IMG/VR virus record: IMGVR_UViG_3300042888_002422
Location: 1-53,543 of that record
Direction: 5' to 3' (one strand)
Length of the DNA: 53,543 nt
Source of the DNA: a virus
The notes below the pieces were generated by a model. The model was not told the origin of the DNA, did no database searches, and was given only the letters and a program-made list of their open reading frames with translations. Numbering within the stretch: position 1 is the stretch's first letter; every line of letters starts with the position of its first letter. A program made the position numbers and the translations under genes. Positions 508 through 53,472 of this stretch are shown here, piece by piece.

Positions 508-542
508 ATGTAGTTTAATTTAAAAAAATTGGTTTATTTTAG

Positions 543-616
543 TTGCGTGGCTGGGACTCGAACCCAGGACCTCTAGGTTATGAGCCTAGCAAGCTAACCA
601 ACTGCTCTACCACACT
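543..616 (-). tRNA. tRNA with anticodon CAT (Met, or Ile if the C is modified)
   Basis: The minus strand folds into a cloverleaf. The D stem is GAGC/GCTT. The anticodon stem CTAGG/CCTAG encloses CTCATAA with anticodon CAT. The T arm is CTGGG-TTCGAGT-CCCAG. The acceptor stem AGTGTGG/CCACGCA has a mismatch at its first pair and a G-T wobble. No CCA is encoded. The anticodon stem lacks the three G-C pairs of an initiator, so this is an elongator Met tRNA or an Ile2 tRNA needing lysidine. It sits between the capsid and HNH genes. Confidence 0.9.
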
Positions 617-2348: not shown

Positions 2349-3587
2349 TTATTGAAACCAAGAACTTGGATTTGTTTTTGAAGTGGATGAAGATTTTTCT
2401 TTTGAAACTTGTCTTGCTACTTCTCCAAATAATGAATCTGTTTTTTTAGTTACACCAGTCTTTTGAATGGTTGATAATGTAGGATCTTTTTCTAATATTT
2501 TTAAAAGTAATCCCACTTTAACTTTCATGGCATGATTTTCAGGTCTTTTAAGATCTAATATAGTTCTATCAAAATCTGATAATGTTTCTCCTGTAGGAGT
2601 TTTCCATTTATCTACCAATAGAAAATCTTGTAACTCATTTACTAACTTAGGATTTAATGGAATACCATCAAACTCTTTTGCTTTCATTTTTTCTGTTAAA
2701 ATATTTTGTACATTATTAATGTATTGATTTTTAACACCTTGTTTTTGTTGTAACTCTTGTTCAGCTTTAGTTTCAATTTGAGCTAGTTTAGAAGCTTCTT
2801 TTTTAACTAATACTTTATGATGTTTAGTTGCAACAGTTTCAAGATCACCATAATTTTGTAGTCTTTCAATTTCTGAATCAATATCTTCATGATCAAAACC
2901 TTGATCTGCTAATGCTTGTTTCATTATTGTTTTTTGGTTTGCTTCTGTAGATAAATCCATTTCAGCAAAATTTACAACAGAATTATATGTATTAAAATAC
3001 TCTTTAGGATCTGCTCCTTTTACAAATATAGCCTCGAATGCATTTTGGTAATCTTCTCCAAATTGTCCTATAAAGTTTTCTACAATTTCTGATGCACCTT
3101 TTTTCTTTTCAGAATTAAACTTTTCTAAGAATTGTTCCGGTGTTGATATTGCTTCTTCATCATCGTCATCTTTATTAAAAACTCCAAGTTTATAAAGATC
3201 ATTTGCTAAAGCACTGAATTGTGTTCCTTCTGGAGCATCGGGTTCCTCTGTATTAGGTTCAGTAGGTTTTGCTTTAACAACTGGAGGGGTGTCAACATCA
3301 TCATCATCATCATTATCTCCTAAGAAATTAGATATTGCAGATTGAGATTTTGTATTATCATCATCTCCTTCTTCTATAGGTGTAATAGTTTTACCTTTAG
3401 GGACTGCTGGGGCTTCAGGAGCTGCAGCTGGAGTTGCTTCTTTAATGATAGGAGTTACATCTTCTGGATTAGAAGTAGATGTTTCTGGTTCAAACAAACC
3501 TTGAAGTAATTCTTGGTTTCCCATTCCCATATCCATTGTACCTTGAATGCTAAAAGCATCCATTGATATTTCTGTATTATCAGCCAT
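2349..3587 (-). CDS. Probable head scaffold / prohead core protein
   Basis: A 412-residue acidic protein between portal and capsid genes. The first 130 residues are low-complexity and rich in Asp, Glu, Pro and Thr, including runs of Asp near residue 90 (DNDDDDDVDTPP) and 138. The middle and C-terminal parts are charged and helical (residues 240-300 are Lys/Glu/Gln-rich coiled coil), ending SSWFQ. An acidic disordered segment followed by coiled coil, directly upstream of the capsid gene, is the usual form of a phage scaffold. The family name is not recognised. Confidence 0.65.
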   Translation of the reverse strand: MADNTEISMDAFSIQGTMDMGMGNQELLQGLFEPETSTSNPEDVTPIIKEATPAAAPEAPAVPKGKTITPIEEGDDDNTKSQSAISNFLGDNDDDDDVDTPPVVKAKPTEPNTEEPDAPEGTQFSALANDLYKLGVFNKDDDDEEAISTPEQFLEKFNSEKKKGASEIVENFIGQFGEDYQNAFEAIFVKGADPKEYFNTYNSVVNFAEMDLSTEANQKTIMKQALADQGFDHEDIDSEIERLQNYGDLETVATKHHKVLVKKEASKLAQIETKAEQELQQKQGVKNQYINNVQNILTEKMKAKEFDGIPLNPKLVNELQDFLLVDKWKTPTGETLSDFDRTILDLKRPENHAMKVKVGLLLKILEKDPTLSTIQKTGVTKKTDSLFGEVARQVSKEKSSSTSKTNPSSWFQ

Positions 3588-3730: not shown

Positions 3731-6316
3731 TTATTTAGCCTTGTTTCTCCCTTTAGCATTTTCTTTTGCTACAGCAAGATCATTAGCCATATTTTCTCTA
3801 GCTACTGCAATCTTCTCTTGTTCTACAGCCATTTTAGTATCAAACTGTTTATTTTTTGAAGATATATCAGCCATTTTAGATTGATAATCTTTTGCAGCTT
3901 TATCTTGTTCATGTGTTAATTTATTCATTTCCATTATATCAGGAACTGCATTTTCATTAACATCTTCTGATCCCACTTTACCAAATCCTGTAGCTTGTAT
4001 AATAGCAATTTCTTTTCTTGAAATTCTATCTAGATCTTTTTGATAATCATCATGAGCAATTTGTTCTTCATGTTGTTGTGCAGCTTGTTGAATCTGAGCT
4101 TGAGCTTGTTCTTTTTGTTGATCAAGAGCTTGTTGTTTTTGTTGCATTTCTTGTTGTTGAATTGCTTGTTGTTGGTCTCTAAGATCTTTAAATACTTTTT
4201 TCATCTCTCTCATAGACTTAGTACTGTATAATTCAATAACATCATATATACTTCCACCATTTTGCATAAGAGGTTGTGCAAGTGCTCTGATTTCATTAAA
4301 CATTTGTGTATCTTCTGGTCTATTTGTAGGAAACACTTTTAAGTCACGAAATTTAAGATCTGTACCATTTACTTGTATAAATGCAGATAAGCCCTCAGAT
4401 GTAATATATGATAGCGTACTTTGTGGTTTAGAACTTTCTATATATTGTGATGCGTCTATTATTGCTTGATACAATTGTCCTTGTACATATTCGTGCGCTA
4501 CAAATAAAGGTTCTGTTTGTGAATAAGATTGTTGCATTGCTGTATTAGTACCTGTAGCTGTTTCTGAGGAAGATACATTACCCATACGTTGTTTAGACAT
4601 ACCTACTAATTCCCAACATTCCATTTTAATTTGTTGTGCTAAAGTATATCTAGATTGTATCTCTTGTGTACGTGTTAGATCAAGAGCTGTAAATTGGTTA
4701 AATGAACTTGGGGCTTTTAAGTTTTCAGGGCTATCATCAATAAATACTACACCTCTATTACGAGCTTCCATTTCCCACATATCAAGAGCATCTTGTGCAT
4801 CTCCATCTTTAGGAACAGGTACGTGTCTTAATGACATAAGTTGTACTTTACCAACTTCTTTTTCAAGTAATTTGTATAATTGATTCATACAAACATTATA
4901 TATTACTTGAAAAGGTTTCATAAGATCTATCAAGCTTTTTGCTTCTGTATTCTTAACTTCATGTGTTGTACCTATAATAGGGCAATAGTTTAAAAGATTA
5001 AAAGGTTTAATATGGTAAATATCTGGGCCTATTTTAATTCCTTGATACCATTGGTTAATCCAACCCCATTCAAGAGATTGTTGTGATGGCATAGTACCTG
5101 ATTTATAATTTTCATCAACAAGTGTTGATTGCTCATTACCCATTTCATCTATATAAATAAGTTTACCTATTTTCTTTTTAGAAATCCAATAGCTTCTTAC
5201 AACAACATATTTATACCCAAATGAACTTACATTATTAGTAAGGCCTAAAAAGTCTTTAAGTCCATCATTATTTTCTTTCATTTCTGATTCAATCATCATT
5301 CTTGTTTGTAAAACAAGTGGATCAAATGTATCATACTGAACAGAGTCTTGACCTTCTGGTGCATTAGGGTTACCAAGGTTAGATTCTCTAACATTAATTA
5401 ATCCATAATCTTGAAGAGAAGAACGTAAATGATCTATTTCTTCTTTAGTAATATCTGGTATAGCTTCAATAATTTCAGATAGTTCCATAACTTGCACAGT
5501 TCCAGCAGCATAAGCTCCTTGAGCTCTACCAGTTGGATCTGATACCCATTTCCTATCAGGAGTAGTAAGGAACCAAGTATTTTTTGGGTTAGCCACTTCA
5601 ATGTTAAAACCAAGTTTTGAGTTGTCTTCATATATATGATAAAATTCACGAGCACTAATTAACATATCTCTAAATGCATCTTCACCTTTTTCTTTAATAT
5701 TAAATTCTGCTTTCATGCATGTAAGAATATGGTTAGCCCATTTTTCTGCTACAGAAGTATAACTATCAAGTTGATCTTTAACTTGTTCCATTGACATTTG
5801 TTCAAGTTCCTCATCTTCTGGAATCTCTTGCCCGGACATTGTTAATTTTTGTAATATCTTTTCTTTAGCTTGTGCTAATATATATTTTTGAAGAGTTTCT
5901 GTTTTAAATTGTAATTCTTCAGCTTGACTATCATCATCAAAAGCTTTCACTCTATATGTATCAGGTCTTTTAGAACACTCACCAATTAATTCATTAATAG
6001 GTGTAGTAACAATAGAATAATGTTTTACATATGCAGGAAGGCCTATGTTAGTTTCTAACATGTCTACAAAACTCTTAGTATCAGGTTCTTGGTAGAAATC
6101 TTCTGCTCTAAGAATACCTTTTACAAGATCATAATTAGGAACAAATGTATCTCTATTTTTAATATATTCAGCATAAGCTTTGTTAGCAAAATAATCCATT
6201 GAATTTTTTATCCAACTTTCATCTTGTTTTTCTTTATCAGTTTTAAACTGATCAGGAAATATATTCAGATAAGCGTATCTGATTGTAGCATCTTTTGTAT
6301 ACCTAATTATTGCCAT
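3731..6316 (-). CDS. Portal protein (crAss-like size)
   Basis: An 861-residue protein whose start overlaps the terminase stop by one base. Length, position next to TerL, and the long helical C-terminus (about residues 700-861, with Gln-rich stretches such as QQQAIQQQEMQQKQQ) fit the large portal proteins of crAss-like podoviruses. Portals form the dodecameric DNA channel at one capsid vertex, and the Gln-rich helical tail would correspond to barrel/crown regions. No catalytic motif is expected or seen. Confidence 0.85.
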   Translation of the reverse strand: MAIIRYTKDATIRYAYLNIFPDQFKTDKEKQDESWIKNSMDYFANKAYAEYIKNRDTFVPNYDLVKGILRAEDFYQEPDTKSFVDMLETNIGLPAYVKHYSIVTTPINELIGECSKRPDTYRVKAFDDDSQAEELQFKTETLQKYILAQAKEKILQKLTMSGQEIPEDEELEQMSMEQVKDQLDSYTSVAEKWANHILTCMKAEFNIKEKGEDAFRDMLISAREFYHIYEDNSKLGFNIEVANPKNTWFLTTPDRKWVSDPTGRAQGAYAAGTVQVMELSEIIEAIPDITKEEIDHLRSSLQDYGLINVRESNLGNPNAPEGQDSVQYDTFDPLVLQTRMMIESEMKENNDGLKDFLGLTNNVSSFGYKYVVVRSYWISKKKIGKLIYIDEMGNEQSTLVDENYKSGTMPSQQSLEWGWINQWYQGIKIGPDIYHIKPFNLLNYCPIIGTTHEVKNTEAKSLIDLMKPFQVIYNVCMNQLYKLLEKEVGKVQLMSLRHVPVPKDGDAQDALDMWEMEARNRGVVFIDDSPENLKAPSSFNQFTALDLTRTQEIQSRYTLAQQIKMECWELVGMSKQRMGNVSSSETATGTNTAMQQSYSQTEPLFVAHEYVQGQLYQAIIDASQYIESSKPQSTLSYITSEGLSAFIQVNGTDLKFRDLKVFPTNRPEDTQMFNEIRALAQPLMQNGGSIYDVIELYSTKSMREMKKVFKDLRDQQQAIQQQEMQQKQQALDQQKEQAQAQIQQAAQQHEEQIAHDDYQKDLDRISRKEIAIIQATGFGKVGSEDVNENAVPDIMEMNKLTHEQDKAAKDYQSKMADISSKNKQFDTKMAVEQEKIAVARENMANDLAVAKENAKGRNKAK

Positions 6317-17891: not shown

Positions 17892-18359
17892 ATGTCAACA
17901 GTTAAATCAACAACAACAGGAGTTTCAAAAAGTGAATTTTCAATCGTTAGAGCAATCAGTGCTTTATTTAAATTAGGTAATGATGGTAAGTTAGATTCTT
18001 TTGTTAATAGAGTAGTTAAAACTCTTAATAAAGAAGTATTAACACACAAAAAGAATTTAGATACTATGAAATTTAATCATGAGCAAAAACTTGATAGTTT
18101 AGCAGATCAATTAGAAGATGCTAATGAAGCTTTAGCTGCATCTTATTTAAATATTGCAGTTGAACAAATTGATAATAATGAAAAACAAACAAGATTTGTA
18201 GATGTATATTTACAAAACATTGATGACCATTTAATGGCTGTTAAAACCATTGAAAAAAGAATTGAAGGAATTAAAAAAGATTATATCGGAGAAACTCAAG
18301 AAGTTCAAGATGATATTGATAGTCTTAACAAAAGAATTGCAATTATTGCAAAACAATAA
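17892..18359 (+). CDS. Coiled-coil protein, 155 residues
   Basis: Begins MSTVKSTTTGVSKSEFSIVR. From residue 45 to the end it is nearly continuous heptad-like helix (NKEVLTHKKNLDTMKFNHEQ; LADQLEDANEALAASY). No enzymatic motif. It may be a structural or oligomerising factor. The large candidate RNA begins right after its stop. Confidence 0.75.
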   Translation: MSTVKSTTTGVSKSEFSIVRAISALFKLGNDGKLDSFVNRVVKTLNKEVLTHKKNLDTMKFNHEQKLDSLADQLEDANEALAASYLNIAVEQIDNNEKQTRFVDVYLQNIDDHLMAVKTIEKRIEGIKKDYIGETQEVQDDIDSLNKRIAIIAKQ

Positions 18360-18360
18360 A

Positions 18361-18953
18361 TTAAATACTATTCCCTCATATAAGATTCTGTGCTAGAATT
18401 AGTGAGGGAATATATTTTAGTGGTCCTACATCCACACACATTAAACTTGTAGGATTGGTCTCTGATGTTAGGGAACACTTGTGAGTTGCAATGAATAAAC
18501 TTTCAAACAGGCATAAACATTGAAAGCCTTTGTAAATAGATTAATACATCAGTGAAACTCTGTATAAATGTTAAATATTTACATAAATGATACTAATTCT
18601 GAATTGACAGGATGTTGGGTGATACATTGTCCGCAGTGTATTGCCATAAATGGAGTAATCCTAGATGTATAGATTCATGTGAGATATGAATAACGAATTG
18701 ATTTAAGTTTAATCTCCTATATGGCGTACTTAACTATACAAATGAGTTCTCAGCAAGTAGTTTAGAGTAATTGGTGGTAAACAACTAATGAAAGTCCTTT
18801 TTAGTACAACTACGTGACCCTACTCTTATTAAGTATCAATTGAAACATTAGAAACTTTGATAGAATATAAGAAAGGGTGCTAATACACTAACAACAAGAT
18901 TTTGTTAGCTTATATTCCGCTAAATGATAAGTGCTCGTACATGCGAGATTTTT
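18361..18953 (+). ncRNA. Candidate giant structured non-coding RNA, about 590 nt
   Basis: Nearly 600 bases lack any credible ORF in a genome that packs genes end to end. Several long hairpins can be read directly: TATTCCCTCA/TGAGGGAATA (10 bp) with an inner ATTCT/AGAAT; CCTACA/TGTAGG; CTTTCAA/TTGAAAG; ATACATTG-tccg-CAGTGTAT; TATCAA/TTGATA; GAATATAAG/CTTATATTC (9 bp, 18861-18918) enclosing CTAACAA/TTGTTAG. It ends in CTCG-tacatg-CGAG followed by A and five T. Base composition is more even than in the flanking genes. Size, isolation and a phage setting recall the GOLLD and ROOL classes of large ornate RNAs, but I cannot match it to either. Confidence 0.7.
18932..18953 (+). terminator. Terminator at the end of the large RNA
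   Basis: CTCG-TACATG-CGAG then A and five T, ending just before the recurrent leader AAACATAGAACACAT. Confidence 0.7.
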
Positions 18954-18968
18954 AAACATAGAACACAT
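18954..18968 (+). promoter_or_regulatory. Recurrent post-terminator leader, copy 2
   Basis: AAACATAGAACACAT, identical to the copy at 13465. Here it lies 23 bases before the next ATG and directly after the RNA terminator. Confidence 0.6.
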
Positions 18969-18991
18969 AGAAACATTTAAAACACAGAAAT

Positions 18992-19138
18992 ATGAAAACA
19001 ATTAGCATGTCACCAACAACTTTTTATTTATTTAAACAAAAAGCAAATGAAATCAGACTATGGTTTGATTATAAAATAACCAAAGGTATTGTATTTGTAC
19101 AAGCCGATGAACAAGCATTAGAAGAATTAGGTTATTAA
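18992..19138 (+). CDS. Small hypothetical protein, 48 residues
   Basis: Encodes MKTISMSPTTFYLFKQKANE and 28 more residues. It stands alone between the large RNA's terminator and its own terminator, so it has its own short transcript and is probably well expressed. Family unknown. Confidence 0.65.
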   Translation: MKTISMSPTTFYLFKQKANEIRLWFDYKITKGIVFVQADEQALEELGY

Positions 19139-19148
19139 TTTCTGAATT

Positions 19149-19175
19149 AGCCCTAGAAATAGGGCTTTTTTATTT
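19149..19175 (+). terminator. Intrinsic terminator
   Basis: AGCCCTA-gaaa-TAGGGCT followed by six T; perfect 7-bp stem. Confidence 0.9.
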
Positions 19176-19188
19176 AAAATTTAAATAT

Positions 19189-19662
19189 ATGAGTACATAT
19201 GTATTTAGTGATCCACATTTTGGACATGAAAAAATGGCTATAAGAAGAGGATTTAGTTCAGCAGAAGAAATGGATGAACTTATTGTTAAAAACTGGAATA
19301 ATACTATATCTAAAAGAGATGCTGTATATATTATGGGTGATATAACAATGGAAAAAAATAATTATACTATTCTTGGTAGATTACAAGGACTTATTAATGT
19401 TGTTCTTGGTAATCATGATCAAAAACAACATGTAAGAGAAATGTTAAAATATATACATAGTGTGGCAGGTATGGTAGATTATAAAAAAACTGTTATATTT
19501 ACACATTGTCCTATACATTCTAGTCAATTAGAATTTAGATATAAATATAATATACATGGTCATGTTCATGAAAATAGTCTTGATGATAAGAGATATATAA
19601 ATGTATGTGCAGAAGTAATAGATTACAAACCAAAATTAATAACAAGTTTAATAACATTATGA
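19189..19662 (+). CDS. Calcineurin-like metallophosphoesterase
   Basis: A 157-residue protein with the full metallophosphoesterase motif series: SDPHFGH (7-13), GD (about 51-52), GNHD (about 76-79), THCPIH (about 105) and GHVH (about 121-124). These bind two metals and hydrolyse phosphoesters. The small size fits the MJ0936/YfcE-like branch, often active on phosphodiesters or nucleotides. Its start follows a terminator. Overlaps the next gene's start (ATGA). Confidence 0.9.
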   Translation: MSTYVFSDPHFGHEKMAIRRGFSSAEEMDELIVKNWNNTISKRDAVYIMGDITMEKNNYTILGRLQGLINVVLGNHDQKQHVREMLKYIHSVAGMVDYKKTVIFTHCPIHSSQLEFRYKYNIHGHVHENSLDDKRYINVCAEVIDYKPKLITSLITL

Positions 19663-52652: not shown

Positions 52653-53282
52653 CTATTTCTTTTTAGACATTTTAGCACCACATTTAGCCATCTTTGTAGC
52701 ACCAAGTGGTTTATCTTTTGTAAGAGAGGCTTTTCCTTTAGCACTAGCTAATGTTTTCTTTTGAACAGCTGTAAATGCTCCTTTAGGATCTACAGGACCA
52801 ACTCTTTTGTTGGAGGCTTTAAGTCCAGTTAGACTTCCACCATTTTTCATTTTTTTAACAGCACCACCAGTTTTCATTCCTCTAAATATAGCATCTGCTC
52901 TTCCTTTAGCATCCAAAGGACTTTTTCCTTGTGTCTTTTCTAATCTTTTTCTTCTAGCATCCATTATTTCTCCTTTTTGTTTTGATTTAGGATCTTTACT
53001 TGAAAGTAAAGGATCTGGAGAATTAACTTTTTTAACTACTTCTTTATTTTGTTTATCTTGTGCTGAACGTAATGTTGCTACATTAGGAGATTTACCAGTT
53101 TTTTCTCTTAATTTTGCATAAGTATATGGTAATTCTTTGTTAGATTCTGTAACAGAATCTTTTTTTGTTTGAGCATAAATAGTATTATACTTGTTATCTA
53201 ATTTAGCTTTTTGAATTGTAGTATTAGAATCTACTTTTTTACCTGTTTGAGCTTTAGGAGCTACCTTTTTCATTGTTGCCAT
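52653..53282 (-). CDS. Lys-rich virion-type protein, 209 residues
   Basis: Begins MATMKKVAPKAQTGKKVDSN. Extremely Lys/Ser/Ala-rich. The C-terminal third (MKTGGAVKKMKNGGSLTGLK; VGPVDPKGAFTAVQKKT; KMAKCGAKMSKKK) has the MKxGGxVKKMKxGG repeats seen in phage virion-associated disordered proteins. The stop lies two bases from the downstream gene start. Confidence 0.7.
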   Translation of the reverse strand: MATMKKVAPKAQTGKKVDSNTTIQKAKLDNKYNTIYAQTKKDSVTESNKELPYTYAKLREKTGKSPNVATLRSAQDKQNKEVVKKVNSPDPLLSSKDPKSKQKGEIMDARRKRLEKTQGKSPLDAKGRADAIFRGMKTGGAVKKMKNGGSLTGLKASNKRVGPVDPKGAFTAVQKKTLASAKGKASLTKDKPLGATKMAKCGAKMSKKK

Positions 53283-53472
53283 AGCGTTTAAATGTTATAT
53301 TGGGTTTTACAATAAGATCACGATGGGTATATTGCCATAGTTCTCCAGTTTGATTAATTATTATTGTATAGATGGTATCTGTTTCATAACCATAATCGGT
53401 AATAAACATGATTGAGCCATCTCCCTTTGGCGTTATAACATCTATTCTATTCTTTGGTTCGTATATTCTCAT
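53254..53472 (-). CDS. Hypothetical protein, 72 residues
   Basis: Begins MRIYEPKNRIDVITPKGDGS. Unlike the rest of the cassette it is a balanced beta-rich sequence (GSIMFITDYGYETDTIYTII; GELWQYTHRDLIVK), perhaps a small barrel. Its last 29 bases overlap the next gene. First complete gene of the cassette seen from the right. Confidence 0.65.
   Translation of the reverse strand: MRIYEPKNRIDVITPKGDGSIMFITDYGYETDTIYTIIINQTGELWQYTHRDLIVKPNITFKRYGNNEKGSS

Follow-up and report, generated by a model that had tools for sequence, protein, structure and literature searches.

GOLLD forms a 14-mer RNA cage and ROOL forms an octameric RNA cage. To our knowledge, the function of these two RNAs is known to nobody, though both are abundant and cage-forming. 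ROOL and GOLLD were reported in phages near tRNA islands, and a ribosome pull-down was reported for GOLLD (PMC12286853). In our study, nucleotides 18361–18953 of a crAss-like phage contig (the window, i.e., the whole stretch of DNA analysed, 53,543 nucleotides) were found almost certainly to encode a member of a family of structured non-coding RNAs. The RNA resembles GOLLD as a large phage-borne structured RNA with a conserved and a variable part, and ROOL as a large phage RNA with a likely pseudoknot. GOLLD and ROOL often lie in or near tRNA islands (PMC12286853), as the new RNA does at some of its loci. It differs from GOLLD in that GOLLD is ~800 nt long whereas the core of the new RNA is 254–514 nt, and in that prophage copies of the new RNA were not found. 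The tmRNA is likewise a multi-pseudoknot RNA and is the adjacent gene in many relatives. The likeness to GOLLD and ROOL drawn in the initial annotation holds for the setting, as all are found in phages and often in tRNA/tmRNA islands, but it does not extend to size, structure or sequence.

The Rfam 15 covariance models gave nothing over the RNA (18300–19200, E ≤ 5) apart from weak sub-threshold matches to the downstream terminator region, and in 20 homologous loci (E ≤ 1) they gave only matches of tRNA/tmRNA type. The initial annotation could name no known class, and the models agree, excluding GOLLD, ROOL, OLE, HEARO and the group I/II introns. The GOLLD model (RF02032; threshold 150 bits) had no match in the window or at the RNA sites of the fetched loci scanned, and the ROOL model (RF03087; threshold 99.1 bits) had none in the window. 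Among 50 RNA-bearing records, no ROOL was found at E ≤ 1 in a scan that contained no positive control match, and GOLLD was found as one true copy, at a site separate from the new RNA. This full GOLLD (321.8 bits) lies at 52949–53355 on the minus strand of G005, the record of locus L011, so that this phage has both RNAs. The new RNA matched no part of the tmRNA model (RF00023) and gave no ARAGORN match to a tmRNA with its tRNA-like domain, and the tmRNA of relatives is a separate downstream gene. Searches of the open-access literature gave papers on GOLLD and ROOL but nothing on this RNA. The family is thus absent from Rfam 15 and undescribed; it is a new RNA of a recognised kind, that of the large phage RNAs of tRNA islands, set apart by its link to tmRNA.

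The locus in its phage contig

The portal, TerL and MCP proteins of the window match crAss-type PHROGs, and the portal family also matches Cellulophaga phage phi14:2, a named member of the Crassvirales. No ORF of at least 60 aa was found over 18361–18953 on either strand, and the stretch lies between two genes, both as first described. An Rfam 15 scan of the window returned one tRNA and no other match; this sole tRNA lies ~18 kb from the RNA, and no tmRNA was found in the window. No relatives were found through the upstream 155-aa protein. Folding of the plus strand was better than that of dinucleotide shuffles (z −2.8, with 1 of 100 shuffles as good), and the excess on the minus strand was smaller (z −1.5). 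The features of the locus are as follows.

542–616, minus strand: tRNA-Met, near the left end of the window
ending at 18359: 155-aa ORF, upstream neighbour of the RNA
18369–18418, plus strand: probable terminator of the upstream gene, hairpin TATTCCCTCA/TGAGGGAATA with a TATTTT tail (sequence; fold −18.3 kcal/mol)
18419–18509, plus strand: variable 5′ module (GTGGTCCTACATCC...CTTTCAAACAG), ~90 nt, preceding P1
18510–18883, plus strand: conserved RNA core, from P1 to the 3′ motif GGGTGCTAA (alignment of 70 homologues, pair counts)
18888–18908, plus strand: 3′ hairpin CTAACAA/TTGTTAG (sequence and fold; not conserved in the family)
18934–18953, plus strand: terminator-like hairpin CTCG-TACATG-CGAG followed by ATTTTT, with a 5-bp stem
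starting at 18992: 48-aa ORF, downstream neighbour, followed by a phosphoesterase at 19189

The initial annotation had proposed an RNA of about 590 nt with two long stems and an intrinsic terminator at its end. The size was too large, since the conserved core contains 374 nt and the gene ~535 nt with its 5′ module and terminator. Both inverted repeats are present in the sequence. The first, TATTCCCTCA/TGAGGGAATA (arms 18369–18378/18403–18412), is missing from the homologues, and G051, a relative by TerL, has a terminator hairpin at the same place in its syntenic gap. This stem and the TATTTT behind it probably terminate the upstream 155-aa gene and lie outside the conserved RNA. The second repeat, GAATATAAG/CTTATATTC (arms 18863–18871/18909–18917), is incompatible with the conserved helix P7, which is preferred in the MFE fold as well as in the family alignment. 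A terminator-like site does close the stretch at 18934–18953, but it is weak (−5.4 kcal/mol); 0.1 such sites were expected in shuffles, and it is likely to mark the predicted 3′ end of the transcript. The segment 18419–18509 has a near-identical copy before the RNA in locus L078, and is therefore probably a swappable 5′ module; a related copy is present in L025/L067. The module would probably form the RNA's 5′ domain.

The RNA family and its conserved core

A blastn search against 50,697 phage records led to phi14:2, which matched in five short blocks of conserved order. Exact 16–17-mers from two of the phi14:2 blocks were scanned over IMG/VR, and three core motifs were found in order in 143 of the 176 loci fetched by motif, as well as in phi14:2. 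The family core ranged between 254 and 514 nt, from GGYUAAACAUUGAA to GGGUGCUAA. A long exact motif was found in no viral contig. Two exact-motif scans of 84,980 bacterial and archaeal species genomes returned no copy; by these exact-pattern searches, the RNA is therefore found only in phages and not in prophage DNA. The short BLAST matches in the Prevotella Lak phages and Pseudoalteromonas phage HM1 were rejected, being apparently coding sequence with noise-level scores.

The family belongs mainly to crAss-like phages and is also present in other large phages. A crAss-type portal was found in 34 of the 50 large RNA-bearing records; the remaining records, some of which may be fragments, suggest that the RNA probably crosses phage groups. 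When TerL relatives were fetched regardless of the RNA, 3 of 35 matched the covariance model; some divergent copies, for example the one in G053, escape this model. One copy per genome is the rule, with tandem copies in some genomes. The Cellulophaga phages phi4:1 (L179, record 131496–131570) and phi17:2 (L180, 131974–132048) keep the P7 hairpin alone, either because the copy has eroded or because the domain occurs by itself. In phi14:2 (L002), the RNA is unannotated and is predicted at ~2905–3370; three small ORFs annotated on the minus strand at 3106–3431 (gp007–gp009) overlap it or lie immediately 3′ to it, and they are unlikely to be true genes.

The window contains the core helices P1–P7 and the motifs UUCUCAGCAAG, GUGACCC and GGGUGCUAA in order. 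The parts of the core, placed by alignment unless otherwise given, are listed below.

18510–18528, plus strand: P1 hairpin GGC/GCC with the conserved loop AUAAACAUUGAAA (alignment, pair counts)
18531–18583, plus strand: P2, TGTAAATA (18531–18538) paired with TATTTACA (18576–18583)
18593–18664, plus strand: P3, CTA (18593–18595) paired with TAG (18662–18664)
18652–18661, plus strand: part of P3, GG-AGTAAT-CC, with the hexaloop AGUAAU
18667–18739, plus strand: P4, GTATAG (18667–18672) paired with CTATAC (18734–18739)
18674–18690, plus strand: P5 hairpin TTCAT/ATGAA with the loop GUGAGAU
18680–18752, plus strand: loop-5 pseudoknot, UGAGA (18680–18684) paired with UCUCA (18748–18752)
18757–18813, plus strand: P6, GTAGTT (18757–18762) paired with AACTAC (18808–18813), enclosing a swappable loop module
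18817–18878, plus strand: P7, ACCC/GGGT (18817–18820/18875–18878) and CTTAT/ATAAG (18825–18829/18867–18871), also in the MFE fold

The alignment (A2) contained 70 homologous sequences, with P1–P7 and the loop-5 pseudoknot as the structure. Paired cells made up 94.4% against 84.2 ± 0.3% in shuffled alignments and 35–47% when the partners were slid by 1–3 columns. Changes on both sides were found in 20 pairs, and 193 cells were changed on both sides against 42 in the control. The covariation score was 0.251 against 0.081 ± 0.005 after shuffling, in favour of a structured RNA. In the arm-swap test, the fit of a sequence's own arms was compared with that of arms taken from other sequences; swapping weakened P2, P3, P4, P5, P5b and P7 (z 7–11), with the shuffling and arm-swap controls correcting for relatedness only in part. 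The homologues were collected by exact motifs, and the invariance of those motifs is therefore partly due to selection of the loci; P2–P5 are free of this bias, except for the short loop-5 partner.

Both sides were changed in 5 of 7 pairs in P2 (arm-swap z 9.9), in all 4 counted pairs in P3 (z 9.0), in 5 of 6 pairs in P4 (z 7.1) and in all 4 pairs in P5 (z 8.7), and the z value of P5b was 6.9. The 5′ strand of P3 carries an optional inserted side domain (CTGAATTGACAGG). P4 of the window, GUAUAG/CUAUAC, differs from the family consensus GUGUUG/CAACAC by two compensatory differences, and its P5 has UUCAU/AUGAA against UUCC/GGAA with the pseudoknot partners retained. The highest value was that of P7 (z 11.3), where homologues contain the alternative arms AGTTTAT/ATAAACT and ATCATTA/TAATGAT. 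P6 was paired in 93.4% of cells with mostly one-sided changes (z 2.9). The loop-5 pseudoknot was paired in 95.7% of cells in the 70 sequences, and its support is weaker because its variation is one-sided only. A held-out covariance model covered P3–P5 with the motif that follows them, and its 44 training sequences included neither the window nor phi14:2. It found the window at 18650–18764 with 71.6 bits (E 1.7e-11), where no other hit in the window exceeded 16 bits, and it found phi14:2 with 93 bits. With compensatory variation in 70 homologues, the match of the held-out model and no coding or intron explanation, the original reading of a structured non-coding RNA is borne out.

Module exchange and the tRNA/tmRNA neighbourhood

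The RNA has a fixed core (P1–P7, a likely pseudoknot and invariant single-stranded motifs), and its outer arms are exchanged as modules between phages. In 49 sequence pairs, involving 40 of the 70 sequences, one arm was at least 90% identical and another less than 60%. L126 shares its P6 arm with the window and differs in its other arms. A variant RNA in G075 (L264/L270) is devoid of P6, with UUCUCAGCAA leading directly into P7. Upstream of the core, the motif TAAGCTGTGTAAAG was found ~50 nt before P1 in L128, L026 and other loci as another 5′ module, and GCTGTGT was found before the RNA in 12 loci where 0 were expected.

A tRNA or tmRNA was found by ARAGORN within 1.5–2 kb of the RNA in 45 of 134 loci, the window not being among them; the link to such islands is therefore common but not general. 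Of 50 large RNA-bearing records, 20 contain a tmRNA scoring 30 bits or more, and in 15 of these 20 the tmRNA starts within 1 kb downstream of the RNA (110–821 nt behind the modelled core) on the same strand, where random placement gives 0.09. The tmRNAs lie as near as 5–13 nt behind the RNA (ARAGORN). In phi14:2, an unannotated tmRNA is present at 4031–4502. The relative G051, with a TerL 75% identical to that of the window, has the two upstream genes in common with it (650 and 145 aa), although the match of the 145-aa gene is one of position, with loose sequence similarity. Behind these genes come a terminator hairpin and, at the site of the RNA of the window, a tRNA-Leu. In this region (L269; G051:C1:88000-97000, reverse strand, ~5360–5640), the tRNA is tRNA-Leu(CAA) and seems to contain an insert of 14 nt. 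No conserved protein neighbour was found across the loci. A Bacteroidota-type promoter was seen upstream in 8 of 81 loci, where chance would give 0.9, and thus no general promoter was found.

Possible functions of the RNA

The reading that we favour, to which our analysis gives about an even chance, is a trans-acting scaffold tied to translation, similar to GOLLD and ROOL in action but unrelated to them. It is favoured because the RNA is a free-standing gene with a fixed pseudoknotted core, swappable arms and a frequent tRNA/tmRNA neighbourhood. The RNA would be transcribed in infected cells, along with tRNAs and tmRNA in many phages, would be released by terminators and tRNA-type processing nucleases, and would fold into a stable scaffold acting in trans on the translation apparatus, i.e., on ribosomes, tRNAs or ribosome rescue. 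The complementarity of the conserved motifs to E. coli rRNA was not beyond chance. A more specific proposal, which we hold only tentatively and consider rather unlikely as a whole, is that of a new RNA class co-transcribed with phage tmRNA and tRNAs. Made of RNA alone, with a fixed core and exchanged arms, it would serve as a scaffold or cofactor that redirects ribosome rescue or translation in Bacteroidota hosts.

The RNA might instead be a dedicated partner of the phage tmRNA, helping trans-translation or processing or protecting the tmRNA, and persisting in some phages that lack the tmRNA. In its favour are the tmRNA directly downstream in the 15 of 20 tmRNA-bearing records given above and the presence of a tmRNA in about 20 of the 50 RNA-bearing records against 5 of the 35 TerL relatives fetched regardless of the RNA, two record sets that are unmatched by phylogeny. 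However, most RNA-bearing loci, including the window, show no nearby tmRNA, and other loci contain tRNAs instead, which leaves this partnership with a small probability.

An equally small probability is given to a decoy or inhibitor directed against host defences that attack RNA or translation, such as tRNA nucleases. Such a role would account for the fast exchange of the outer arms, and the modular shuffling (49 pairs among 40 sequences) and the patchy distribution, restricted to phages, are in keeping with it. The core, however, is under tighter constraint than the arms, the resemblance to tRNA arms (T-arm-like hairpins in the variable arms) was within chance (2 of 72), and no link to defence was seen.

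A cis-acting leader that regulates the downstream gene is improbable. The downstream start codon follows the RNA by 13–36 nt in some loci, but the downstream genes are unrelated from locus to locus, a tmRNA or tRNA is often next, and in the window a terminator lies between the RNA and the next gene. A mobile or self-splicing, intron-like ribozyme is slightly less probable still. Its conserved core and swappable arms, modular evolution, patchy presence, tandem copies in some genomes and HNH-endonuclease-like ORFs beside a few copies (L037, L005; read by eye) recall the group I/II introns, whereas the Rfam group I/II models were unmatched, the RNA is usually present in a single copy per genome, and in 65 loci no ORF ran into the RNA, the downstream genes had their own starts and no tRNA was split. 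A protein gene in decay, or hairpins formed by chance, are refuted by the compensatory changes and the held-out model match and can practically be dismissed; the absence of an ORF, which speaks for them, carries little information.

As for the favoured translation-linked scaffold, the clear genetic link to phage tmRNA points toward ribosome rescue or translation, and from large phage RNAs we know of no earlier pointer to a defined process. The RNA is unrelated to GOLLD and ROOL yet occupies a similar niche, and its core is constrained over more than 140 contigs. A full copy is present in phi14:2, a cultured crAss-like phage of Cellulophaga baltica, so that the expression, structure and deletion of the RNA can be tested.
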